Below are positions 15,328 to 22,340 of a DNA stretch of 22,340 nucleotides, piece after piece; the stretch's first letter is position 1; each line of letters begins with the position of its first letter. The notes beneath the pieces were generated by a model. That model was not told the origin of the DNA. It did no database searches and worked only from the letters and a program-made list of their open reading frames with translations. Made by a program: the position numbers and the translations under genes. The stretch spans positions 1-22,340 of the IMG/VR virus record IMGVR_UViG_3300037961_000342. The stretch is one strand, 5' to 3'. Source of the stretch: a virus.

Positions 15328-15721
15328 AAATGTATGTGTAGTCGTCCCAGATAAAATAGTTTCTGTAGATGGAGAAACTTACCATATAGAAACTTGGTCC
15401 TTTGACGATTCAAAAACTTGGGCTATTCAATGGAATGGTTCAACAAAAACAGGAGATATTGAACCAGCTCCTGTAAACGGAAAGATAGAAAGCGGTAACG
15501 AAGATATTACAGAAAGTGATTACAACGCGAAAGTAAAACCTTATGTAGACGCTTGGGAAGTTGAAAAGGCTAGACAAGCAAAATTAATAGAGGATCAAAA
15601 AAAGTTAGATGCTGAAGCGTTGGCAACTAAAATTGCAAACCGCGCAGCTGTTAGAAAGTTAGGCAAGATACCTGTTGAAAATCAGATAGCACACTATCCT
15701 AAAGACGCTACAGAGATATGA
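15317..15721 (+). CDS. Hypothetical protein with beta N-terminus and Lys-rich helix
   Basis: 134 residues, overlapping its neighbours at both ends (11 nt upstream, ATGA downstream). The first ~70 residues look beta-rich ('VVPDKIVSVDGETYHIE', then 'TWAIQWNG'). Residues about 80-115 form a charged helix, 'AWEVEKARQAKLIEDQKKLD', possibly coiled-coil. The sheet-plus-helix plan and the position after fibre genes resemble phage tail fibre assembly or chaperone-like proteins, but that is only suggestive. No catalytic motif is seen. Confidence 0.7.
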   Translation: MTTKNVCVVVPDKIVSVDGETYHIETWSFDDSKTWAIQWNGSTKTGDIEPAPVNGKIESGNEDITESDYNAKVKPYVDAWEVEKARQAKLIEDQKKLDAEALATKIANRAAVRKLGKIPVENQIAHYPKDATEI

Positions 15722-16227
15722 TTCAGCAGCTATTCTCTATACCTGTATTTAGTACTAAGGTTAAAAACTTTGATCAAATACAGAATGAAATTACTAGGGG
15801 ACTTAAGAACAGTAAATTTTCTATGAACCCACTTTGGGGGAGTACTCATTACTTATCAGACCCTACATTTTCAGAGAATTGGCTTGCTAAACACAGTTGT
15901 AACACCCTACTTTCTGAAATAGATACTTATTTAAAAGAGTATCAAGATGATGTATATACAATGAAAGATTCTTGGGTAGCTTTATTTAAAGAACACAATT
16001 ATGGACATATTCATCATCACGGCATAGGAATATCAGGAGTTTATTATTATAAAGTTAAAGGTAGTACAGGTAATTTATTTTTTAAAACAAACAGGGATTG
16101 GCAAGGTAGAGTAGACATAGAAAGTGAAGAGGGTCGTTTGTATTTATTTCCTAGTGATCTCGAACATGGGATTACTACTAATACAACTAATACATCAAGA
16201 ATTAGTATCTCATTCAACTTCAAATAA
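15718..16227 (+). CDS. 2-oxoglutarate/Fe(II)-dependent oxygenase (oxygenase 1)
   Basis: 169 residues. It begins 'LFSIPVFSTKV' and carries the features of the small phage/bacterial 2OG-Fe(II) oxygenase family: a His cluster 'HIHHHGIGISGVYYY' (H97, H99-H101), 'GRLYLFPSDLEHGI' with the distal metal ligand H150, and 'SRISISFNF' with R161 as the likely 2-oxoglutarate-binding arginine. Such enzymes hydroxylate proteins, nucleic acids or small molecules using Fe(II), O2 and 2OG; the substrate here is unknown. Start overlaps the upstream stop as ATGA. The TAA stop overlaps an ATA that appears to start the next gene. Similar genes are common in marine cyanophages. Confidence 0.85.
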   Translation: MIQQLFSIPVFSTKVKNFDQIQNEITRGLKNSKFSMNPLWGSTHYLSDPTFSENWLAKHSCNTLLSEIDTYLKEYQDDVYTMKDSWVALFKEHNYGHIHHHGIGISGVYYYKVKGSTGNLFFKTNRDWQGRVDIESEEGRLYLFPSDLEHGITTNTTNTSRISISFNFK

Positions 16228-16580
16228 TAGAAATACCTCAAACCCCTGTTATAGAAACTATATCAATACCTTTACCTACCGGAGACGTTCCTTACTATAA
16301 ACCTTTAGTCGTTCCACCTAGTGATTTAACACGACCAGATGGTGTACAAGCTGAAGCTACAGAAGAAACAGATACAGGTATAAGGAATGTCAATATTCCA
16401 ATCGTAGATTTTGATGTACCTTTACCAGAAAATGAAATATTAATTACTGCATCGACAACCGCAGTAGTTTCAGTAGCTGCAACATTAACAGCTACGGCAG
16501 CCTTTAAATGGGTTGTAACAGCTATGAAACCAATACTAAAAACTACATGGAAGAAGTTAAGCAACCGAAGAAAGGGTTGA
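16227..16580 (+). CDS. Cryptic membrane protein, apparent ATA start
   Basis: An open frame of about 117 codons fills what would otherwise be a 280-base gap. It reads 'IEIPQTPVIETISIPLPTGD', then 'VPYYKPLVVPPSDLTRP', an acidic stretch, 'IPIVDFDVPLPENEILITAS', an Ala/Thr/Val-rich hydrophobic segment suitable as one membrane helix (about residues 77-101), and a basic tail 'KLSNRRKG'. Codon use and composition look coding. There is no ATG, GTG or TTG at the front (the first ATG, 16523, is near the end). ATA 16227-16229 overlaps the preceding TAA exactly as ATG does in the TAATG overlaps at 1070, 15031 and 17666. The frame is open from 16206, so ATT 16212 or ATA 16224 are alternatives. Pro-rich, presumably an envelope-associated protein; function unknown. 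Confidence 0.68.
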   Translation: MEIPQTPVIETISIPLPTGDVPYYKPLVVPPSDLTRPDGVQAEATEETDTGIRNVNIPIVDFDVPLPENEILITASTTAVVSVAATLTATAAFKWVVTAMKPILKTTWKKLSNRRKG

Positions 16581-16855
16581 TAGGAAAACTAAAAGACATG
16601 AGTGATGAGAAGGAACATACATTAGAAGTCCTAGGAACCTTAGTTAGATTAGGCGTTGTTGTCTGGTCTGGTTTCATAATCACTATGAACTACATAGATA
16701 TACCGATGGTGAAGAAGTCTGGGAATAGCGATATCACTTTCGTAGCCAGCGTTTTTACGGGAGCCCTAGCCACATTCGGCTTGACTACCGGGAAGAACGG
16801 TAATGGCAAACCACCAATATGCCCTATGGCAAATAAAGATAAACCAAAAGCATGA
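16547..16855 (+). CDS. Small two-helix membrane protein, holin-like
   Basis: 102 residues from the ATG at 16547; a longer in-frame ATG lies at 16508, but most of that extension overlaps the upstream gene and looks non-coding. The N-terminus is basic ('EVKQPKKGLIGKLKD'). Two hydrophobic helices follow at about residues 29-50 ('TLVRLGVVVWSGFIITM') and 63-80 ('TFVASVFTGALATFGLTTG'), then a polar Gly/Asn/Lys tail. Small size, two helices and charged tails resemble class II holins, which open the inner membrane at lysis. No endolysin is visible in the window to confirm a lysis cassette, so another membrane role is possible. It overlaps the next gene as ATGA. Confidence 0.65.
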   Translation: MEEVKQPKKGLIGKLKDMSDEKEHTLEVLGTLVRLGVVVWSGFIITMNYIDIPMVKKSGNSDITFVASVFTGALATFGLTTGKNGNGKPPICPMANKDKPKA

Positions 16856-17208
16856 AGAAACTAATTCTGCTTTTAGCTCTGTTATCACCCAGCATAGCTA
16901 GAGCCAACACAGTCACTCCCCAGTTCACTACAGGGAGTATGAACTCAACGACCACTACGACTCAAACTATTGTGGAGACGGAGCAACGTCAGGTCTTCGG
17001 AGCTGAAGTTAAAACGTGGTCAGGTAATAACGTAACTGCATCTGGAAACTTATCAGATACAGCTACAACATTTTCAGTAACTAACGCCACCCTACCGTGG
17101 AACTTAGAAACAACAACAAGAAGCGCAGGCTTAGTAGAGCAAATAGATTACACCAGAAACTACACAATAAACTCTACTACTACTTCGCTGTCTGTCTTCT
17201 CTCAATAA
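16852..17208 (+). CDS. Exported Thr-rich protein
   Basis: 118 residues with a clear Sec signal peptide: basic start, hydrophobic core and Ala-x-Ala cleavage site ('KKLILLLALLSPSIARA', cut before Asn19). No lipobox cysteine is present, so it is soluble or outer-surface rather than a lipoprotein. The mature part is very rich in Thr/Ser/Asn, with short beta-like stretches and no Cys. Function unknown; envelope or outer-membrane association is plausible. Its last 112 bases also lie within the next gene in another frame, and its start overlaps the preceding stop (ATGA). Confidence 0.72.
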   Translation: MKKLILLLALLSPSIARANTVTPQFTTGSMNSTTTTTQTIVETEQRQVFGAEVKTWSGNNVTASGNLSDTATTFSVTNATLPWNLETTTRSAGLVEQIDYTRNYTINSTTTSLSVFSQ

Positions 17209-17666
17209 GTCCAGTACTGGCTGAAGGAGACACAAATAATAATAGTAACCCTGTGGCAGCAGCCACCGGAAACGTTACGAATCAAGCTGTCCAATTCCAG
17301 AATAATGGAGCACCAAGTAGACAATCCTTTGGTCCCAACATTTCTTGTAACGGCAGCACGATGACATTTAGCCCATTTTATATGGGCAACGATACGGAAC
17401 CACAGACAGAAGATGGTTACGTAATTTCAGAGAACTGGGGGTTTCAAGTAAACTTCTCAGTTCCTTTAAACAGAAAACTGACAAAGCAATGCGAAGAAAT
17501 GGCAGCTAGTCAGATACAAAAAAATAAGCTCGATTTTGAATTAGTTCGTGCACTCAAATGTGCCGAGCTACAGCAGAAAGGCTTTACCCTGCTACCCGGA
17601 TCACGTGTATATCACCTCTGCTCTGATGTAGTACCTATCCAATCACTTATACCAAAGAAAAAATAA
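17097..17666 (+). CDS. Exported four-cysteine protein
   Basis: 189 residues from GTG 17097, the only ordinary start codon in this frame (stop upstream at 17082-17084). The N-terminus has many Arg/Lys, then a hydrophobic core and an Ala site ('FAVCLLSISPVLA' before Glu), giving a long-n-region signal peptide. The mature domain contains four Cys ('NISCNG', 'KQCEE', 'LKCAE', 'HLCSD'), consistent with periplasmic disulfides, and a strand motif 'ENWGFQVNFSVPL'. No enzymatic motif is recognised. It overlaps the preceding exported-protein gene by 112 nt, an unusually long dual-coded stretch, and the following gene as TAATG. Probably works with its neighbour in the envelope. Confidence 0.68.
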   Translation: MELRNNNKKRRLSRANRLHQKLHNKLYYYFAVCLLSISPVLAEGDTNNNSNPVAAATGNVTNQAVQFQNNGAPSRQSFGPNISCNGSTMTFSPFYMGNDTEPQTEDGYVISENWGFQVNFSVPLNRKLTKQCEEMAASQIQKNKLDFELVRALKCAELQQKGFTLLPGSRVYHLCSDVVPIQSLIPKKK

Positions 17667-21708: not shown

Positions 21709-21726
21709 CTTATACACATTCGTATA
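21705..21726 (+). promoter_or_regulatory. Stop-codon-linked TATACA element (copy 3)
   Basis: The stop TAA (21706-21708), two bases, TATACAC (21711-21717), one base, TT and then CGTATA run directly into the ATG at 21726. It matches copy 2 at 17 of 22 positions with the stop codon in register. Here no terminator intervenes before the start codon. Confidence 0.35.
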
Positions 21727-22133
21727 TGTATGACAATTTAAACGCCTTACAGGGCGATTTCAAGCTGTTTCTGCAAGCATTATGGAATCAGCTTGATCTA
21801 CCTTCACCCACACGTGCACAATATGCGATTGCAGACTATTTACAAAACGGTCCGAAACGATTACAGATCCAAGCGTTTCGTGGGGTTGGTAAGTCTTGGA
21901 TTACTGGTGCTTTCGTCCTTTGGACTCTATTTAAAGACCCAGAAAAGAAAATAATGATAATTTCGGCTTCTAAAGAAAGAGCCGACAACATGAGTATCTT
22001 CTTACAAAAATTATGTATCTCGGGACTCCTCAGACTACTTTTACTGTTTATCGTAAGTTGGCAGAGCGGGCTTATCGACCATTTGTCTGGCCGAGTAGAT
22101 ACCCAAAAGACGTTACACCATACGAAGGACTAA
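21726..22133 (+). CDS. Terminase large subunit, N-terminal fragment (T7 gp19-like)
   Basis: Genuine terminase sequence runs to about 22012 (residue ~96). It includes 'LPSPTRAQYAIADYLQNGPK', the Walker A loop 'AFRGVGKSW' (about residues 54-62) and 'IMIISASKERADNMSIFLQK', which closely parallels T7 gp19. After 'FLQKL' the frame leaves the family: the remaining ~40 codons to the TGA at 22131-22133 (Leu-rich, then His/Thr) are out of frame and unlike terminase. The proper continuation appears at 22013 in another frame, with roughly 90 residues missing compared with T7 gp19, including the Walker B region. As written, the product could not be an active packaging ATPase. Either a real deletion or an assembly error. 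Confidence 0.88.
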   Translation: MYDNLNALQGDFKLFLQALWNQLDLPSPTRAQYAIADYLQNGPKRLQIQAFRGVGKSWITGAFVLWTLFKDPEKKIMIISASKERADNMSIFLQKLCISGLLRLLLLFIVSWQSGLIDHLSGRVDTQKTLHHTKD

Positions 22134-22340
22134 TAGCTCCACAGCTACAAGAAGACATAGATAATGGTGCCGAAGCAGGGCAACCGACTGACCCAGAACG
22201 ATTTGCTAATGAAGACTTACTGGAAAGGGAGTCAGCTATGGGACGAAGCAACTTTATGCTTCAGTTCCAGCTTGACACCACGCTTAGTGATGCTGAGAAG
22301 TTTCCTCTTAAGGCTGCTGACCTTGTTATTACTAGCGTTA
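22013..22340 (+). pseudogene. Terminase large subunit, displaced downstream part
   Basis: From ATG 22013, frame +2, the sequence reads 'MYLGTPQTTFTVYRKLAERA', then 'WPSRYPKDVTPYEGLIAPQL' and later 'GRSNFMLQFQLDTTLSDAEK', matching the part of T7 gp19 beginning 'IYLGTPQTE' and continuing to 'LQFMLNPNLSDAEKYPL'. It stays open to the window end. It is joined to the Walker A fragment at about 22005-22013 with a frame change of one base, so the intact gene would need about 3n+1 bases restored. The ATG at the join is an internal codon in relatives, not a natural start. The nuclease domain should follow beyond the window. Confidence 0.85.

Follow-up and report, generated by a model that had tools for sequence, protein, structure and literature searches.

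A conserved PHROG 9426 gene of marine T7-like cyanophages is likely translated from an AUA codon in a stop-start overlap

The sequence analysed here, hereafter the window, comprises 22,340 nucleotides of a 29,222-base linear virus record (IMG/VR IMGVR_UViG_3300037961_000342) and belongs to a T7-like cyanophage. Between an oxygenase-like gene and a DUF6450 gene lies a forward frame, 16206-16580, which is open for 124 codons from the TAG at 16203-16205 to its own stop at 16578-16580 (Table 1). A first-pass annotation of the window had described this frame as coding-like but without a start codon at its front, and had offered a rare AUA or AUU start, a start lost by a G-to-A change, or a -1 frameshift from the oxygenase gene as explanations. 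It had also called the downstream gene holin-like, a label that we could not uphold: 16508-16855 has no match to a holin family and is recognised only as DUF6450 in Pfam and as PHROG 2714/721. The order of the two genes, with the DUF6450 gene overlapping the one before it, is the same in P-SSP7 and P-GSP1. Further downstream, an ORF with a signal-peptide-like front (16852-17208) and a GTG-started ORF (17097-17666) have 112 nt in common, read in different frames.

Table 1. Genes and candidate start codons at the oxygenase-DUF6450 junction of the window
Feature	Position	Strand	Basis or remark
2OG-Fe(II) oxygenase-like gene (PF13759)	15718..16227	+	Pfam E=1e-14, PHROG 81
Oxygenase TAA stop, shares A16227 with AUA	16225..16227	+	Sequence
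ATT, alternative start of the first-pass annotation	16212..16214	+	No relative starts in this column
ATA, alternative start one codon upstream	16224..16226	+	Column of GTG in L047/L048 and of ATG in SS120-1
Proposed AUA start, overlaps oxygenase stop as TAATA	16227..16229	+	ATG/GTG column in most relatives; no NTG available
PHROG 9426 member, 117 residues	16227..16580	+	Start AUA 16227 proposed, stop TAG 16578-16580; profile match, P-SSP7 identity, dN/dS
DUF6450 (PF20048) gene, 73-nt overlap with the 3' end of the AUA gene	16508..16855	+	Pfam; overlap also in P-SSP7 and P-GSP1

The homologue search that the first-pass annotation had proposed as a check placed the frame in a known family. Its product matches the PHROG 9426 profile with E=4.1e-46 over positions 12-131 of its 136, shares 81% identity with PSSP7_042 of P-SSP7, and gave tblastn matches to cyanophages with E-values down to 2e-39; relatives are also present in P-GSP1, S-TIP37, S-RIP1, S-SBP1, SS120-1 and others, and are encoded by 278 IMG/VR stretches. 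Four matches in a genome collection added nothing about the start. One contig assigned to a Neomarinimicrobiota MAG (PBPT01000069.1, 7458 bases) carries the cyanophage gene and is a phage contig in a bacterial bin. Over the 99 codons that precede the first NTG, comparison of the window with five relatives gave dS of 0.5-1.8 and dN of 0.09-0.15, and with dN much lower than dS, this part of the frame, which no NTG could start, is under purifying selection. Coding statistics agree, with a score of 0.25 in frame, like that of the other genes of this phage, and of about -0.2 in both of the other forward frames, although one reverse frame scores as high. As the first-pass annotation had noticed, the N-terminal half is Pro-rich (12 of the first 70 residues are Pro) and is followed by one hydrophobic helix; the C-terminal tail is basic. 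Structure prediction yielded a long helix at residues 75-115 behind a disordered front, at a low-confidence mean pLDDT of 62 that is too weak for a fold search. Together, these comparisons indicate that 16227-16580 is a genuine gene, conserved as the local representative of PHROG 9426. The protein, with one helix and encoded between tail-fibre and terminase genes, would suit a part in lysis or in the membrane.

Where this gene starts is less obvious. The frame contains a single ATG and no GTG or TTG; this ATG comes 99 codons behind ATA16227, at codon 100, and for this reason the gene is absent from the ordinary, program-made ORF list of the window, as had been foreseen for any ATG-based finder. 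ATA16227 shares its first base with the oxygenase stop, in the same register as the TAATG overlaps at 1070, 15031 and 17666, all of which are real. Taken alone, this TAATA register is weak evidence for a start because TA follows TAA in the window by chance in about 9% of cases (TG in 10%); homology, with the selection and coding statistics given above, lifts the case above chance. No Shine-Dalgarno sequence precedes ATA16227 (predicted pairing +2.2 kcal/mol). The three TAATG overlaps likewise have none, and among the 22 other starts examined in this phage just 5 have one.

We then compared the start column across relatives. Most distinct relatives have ATG or GTG immediately before a conserved (E/D)(I/L)P motif, and this column is that of ATA16227. 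In S-SBP1 and S28-C3 the junction reads CAAATAATGGA, a TAATG overlap, versus CAAATAATAGA in the window. The S-SBP1 homologue (L005:1504-1926), from a Synechococcus phage, has no annotated CDS in spite of this normal ATG. The next closest N-termini to that of the window, those of L047 and L048 (GTG) and of SS120-1 (ATG), begin a codon further upstream, at the position of ATA 16224, which would speak for use of that codon; most relatives, including the whole Shine-Dalgarno-bearing AUA class described below, nevertheless start in the 16227 column. Among the relatives none starts in the column of ATT 16212, and the AUU start suggested in the first-pass annotation was rejected on this ground. We regard initiation at either of these two other codons as very improbable. 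Fusion to the oxygenase by -1 ribosomal frameshifting is scarcely credible. The frame does lie in the -1 register relative to the oxygenase gene and stays open over the 7 codons ahead of ATA16227, but no slippery heptamer is present between 16206 and 16227. The oxygenase gene has a single such heptamer, near 15930; it falls about 275 nt short of the point where the frame opens, and the -1 frame has later stops after it. Moreover, in the relatives an in-frame stop immediately precedes the gene's own start, and the upstream genes are unrelated, so that this proposal of the first-pass annotation fell as well.

ATA in the start column is not confined to the window. It occurs in 8 of about 110 distinct relatives (about 7%, window included), and in the seven besides the window it is followed by GAA. 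One of these is the isolate P-SSP7, in which the ATA is identical in two GenBank records. In the annotation, PSSP7_042 begins two codons further in, at a TTG (L001 1492) too far from the Shine-Dalgarno sequence; the ATA at L001 1486 is the better start. An IMG/VR scan for the junction GA(A/G)..GC.GC-ATA-GA(A/G), a pattern in which the codon forming the Shine-Dalgarno sequence was not required (GAA was allowed), found 29 contigs, all with GAG. Part of this set had first been fetched with a pattern requiring GGAG; the pattern allowing GAA returned the same contigs and three more, again all GAG. In this class, to which P-SSP7 belongs, the ATA overlaps the stop of a tail-fibre gene as ATAG and follows GGAG(G/A)TAGCAGC, and the junction is borne by several clearly different gene bodies.

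A point against general use of the AUA is that 24 of the 29 contigs have CTG or TTG as third codon, which might be used instead. This codon varies, being CTG in 19, CTT in 3, TTG in 2 and ATA in 2 of 26 contigs and CTG in the other three, which argues that it is not the start in general. Five contigs of the class (L099, L104, L202, L204 and L205) have no usable NTG or CTG, and an NTG or CTG before the conserved motif was found neither in the window nor in L149/L078, L145/L089, L202, L204 and L205. Because nothing of this kind is available near the front, the AUA would be the only reasonable start in several members. We conclude from these junctions that the P-SSP7-type phages very probably start their PHROG 9426 protein at AUA.

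The recurrence bears directly on whether base 16229 has been read correctly. A sequencing or assembly error, such that the real phage has ATG at 16227-16229, has several points in its favour: the window is one base away from the TAATG overlap of S-SBP1 and S28-C3, its ATA junction is known from one contig, and that contig is not flawless, since about 277 nt of its terminase gene are missing, out of frame. We looked for another contig with this junction between the oxygenase gene and the present gene, allowing either ATG or ATA, and found none, though near-identical records may be missing from the set searched. Yet an ATA present in about 7% of distinct relatives is far above any plausible base-error rate, the two GenBank records of P-SSP7 agree on it, and the fault in the terminase is structural, not one of base calling. 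An error is thus improbable, and a wrong base at just this place is far less likely than a true AUA. The terminase fault itself, in the large terminase gene at 21726-22339, is probably a mis-join or else a real deletion relative to P-SSP7: the pieces 21726-22013 and 22013-22339 match AY939843 at 42081-42368 and 42645-42971 and are 88-93% identical to P-SSP7.

The base may also be right and the gene weakly translated or silent, as a recent loss-of-function allele. An AUA without a Shine-Dalgarno sequence should be weak, and the tip branch of the window gene is long (0.17 against a median of 0.031). Set against this, the frame is intact for 117 codons, and dN/dS is about 0.1-0.24 versus the five relatives and not above that within the AUA class. 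We consider genuine loss of the start decidedly improbable. The G-to-A change proposed in the first-pass annotation survives in part: a change from TAATG to TAATA fits the junctions of S-SBP1 and S28-C3, while a dead gene is opposed by the low dN/dS and by the recurrence of AUA.

To ask whether AUA junctions behave as initiation sites, we turned to the tail-fibre ends. The upstream genes of the AUA class are tail-fibre-like and end in Glu-(Ile/Val)-Ala-Ala, encoded by GAG(A/G)TAGCAGC; with the G before it, this sequence forms GGAG(G/A)T, which lies six bases ahead of the ATA. Other tail-fibre genes of the same phages have the same end and run into ATGA or ATAATGG overlaps; the ATG of the ATGA overlaps lies at the same distance from the Shine-Dalgarno sequence as the ATA of the AUA class. 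A role of GGAG in initiation predicts that the synonymous Glu codon is kept as GAG ahead of a start and left unconstrained at other ends. The counts of GAG were 21 of 21 for distinct AUA junctions, 46 of 47 for distinct ATG-coupled ones and 4 of 14 for uncoupled ends, taken to be those lacking an NTG within 12 bases (Fisher p=5e-6 for AUA versus uncoupled and p=1e-7 for ATG versus uncoupled, both optimistic since the sequences are related). The one GTG junction with a tail-fibre end of this kind has GAA, and GAG makes up 27% of the Glu codons of this phage. In their choice of Glu codon, AUA junctions behave like ATG junctions. The 3'-terminal module GGAG(G/A)TAGCAGC is shared by tandem tail-fibre-like genes (L001, L025, L030, L078, L089, L099, L103, L105 and others), where it encodes Glu-(Ile/Val)-Ala-Ala and doubles as the Shine-Dalgarno sequence of the next gene; terminal copies without a start prefer GAA. 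This module may be a recombination joint for swaps of fibre genes.

Taking these lines of evidence together, we think it likely that 16227-16580 is a functional phage gene of PHROG 9426 translated from the AUA at 16227. The rare AUA start, first among the options of the first-pass annotation, is the one that finds support. ATA16227 occupies the column in which relatives have ATG or GTG, and for the family the support is strong, 29 other contigs having AUA in that column behind a Shine-Dalgarno sequence. In the P-SSP7-type phages, initiation would take place at an AUA overlapping the tail-fibre stop (ATAG) and would be aided by GGAG(G/A)T six bases upstream. That argument transfers only in part to the window because the window has no Shine-Dalgarno sequence. 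There, the AUA probably works by termination-reinitiation at TAATA: a ribosome that has terminated on the oxygenase TAA, or one close to it, would begin again on the overlapping AUA with the initiator tRNA. Efficiency would be lowered, and little of the membrane protein would be made.

Near-cognate AUN starts are known from natural genes, including one in a phage: infC of Escherichia coli and the internal gene 26* of phage T4 both start at AUU, whereas the codon here is AUA. In stop-start register the junctions are the same as the ATGA and TAATG overlaps of termination-reinitiation and differ from them in having AUA in place of AUG; the tail-fibre genes of these phages carry the same GGAGGTAGCAGC module before ATGA, ATAATG and ATAG. 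Within PHROG 9426, the window gene shares family, place before the DUF6450 gene and start column with PSSP7_042 and its relatives; most of these start with ATG or GTG, but P-SSP7 itself has ATA. No AUG, GUG or UUG is able to serve as start in the window, L149, L145, L202, L204 or L205, and the AUA stands where homologues start, as a natural AUA start should. Reinitiation without a Shine-Dalgarno sequence has been documented in an M13-derived reporter, where it is sensitive to IF3 (PMC2268962). Natural AUA starts have been described for infC, ccpN and citZ of Staphylococcus aureus by ribosome profiling and reporters, with about 10-30% of the output of AUG and with strong extended Shine-Dalgarno motifs stressed (PMC13009471). 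The GGAGGT of the P-SSP7-type class resembles such a motif. A strong Shine-Dalgarno sequence at a suitable distance is present in the 29 other contigs and missing from the window; it is a feature of the S. aureus examples that is not strictly defining. The S. aureus genes are bacterial regulatory or metabolic genes, whereas the present case is a phage gene in ATAG and TAATA stop-start overlaps, known from sequence comparison alone. The main new result is the recurrence of AUA in the start column.

How often AUA arose in this family is a further question. The AUA of the window probably arose separately from that of the P-SSP7 type because the upstream gene, the type of overlap and the Shine-Dalgarno sequence all differ between them. 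A gene-body tree (112 columns, 48 open forks) gives 7 changes to AUA, and well-supported branches require at least 3 of them; the 5' end, however, moves between phages together with the tail-fibre gene, and the tree does not fix the number of origins. A wider reading is possible, though on balance doubtful: AUA would be a regular, selected start of this gene across marine T7-like cyanophages that arose at least twice, as ATAG with a Shine-Dalgarno sequence behind a tail-fibre gene and as TAATA without one behind an oxygenase gene, and was retained since it reduces the amount of a membrane protein that would be harmful when made early or in excess. Published proteomic or ribosome-profiling data on PSSP7_042 did not turn up in the literature.

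Phage gene finders allow ATG, GTG and TTG, and a conserved gene with an AUA start is consequently missed, as in the window, or given a misplaced start, as in P-SSP7. The gene affected is conserved in an abundant group of ocean phages. The family would offer natural AUG, GUG and AUA pairs behind nearly identical junctions, with which it could be tested how far reinitiation at overlaps tolerates AUA and whether phages use this codon to hold down a membrane protein.
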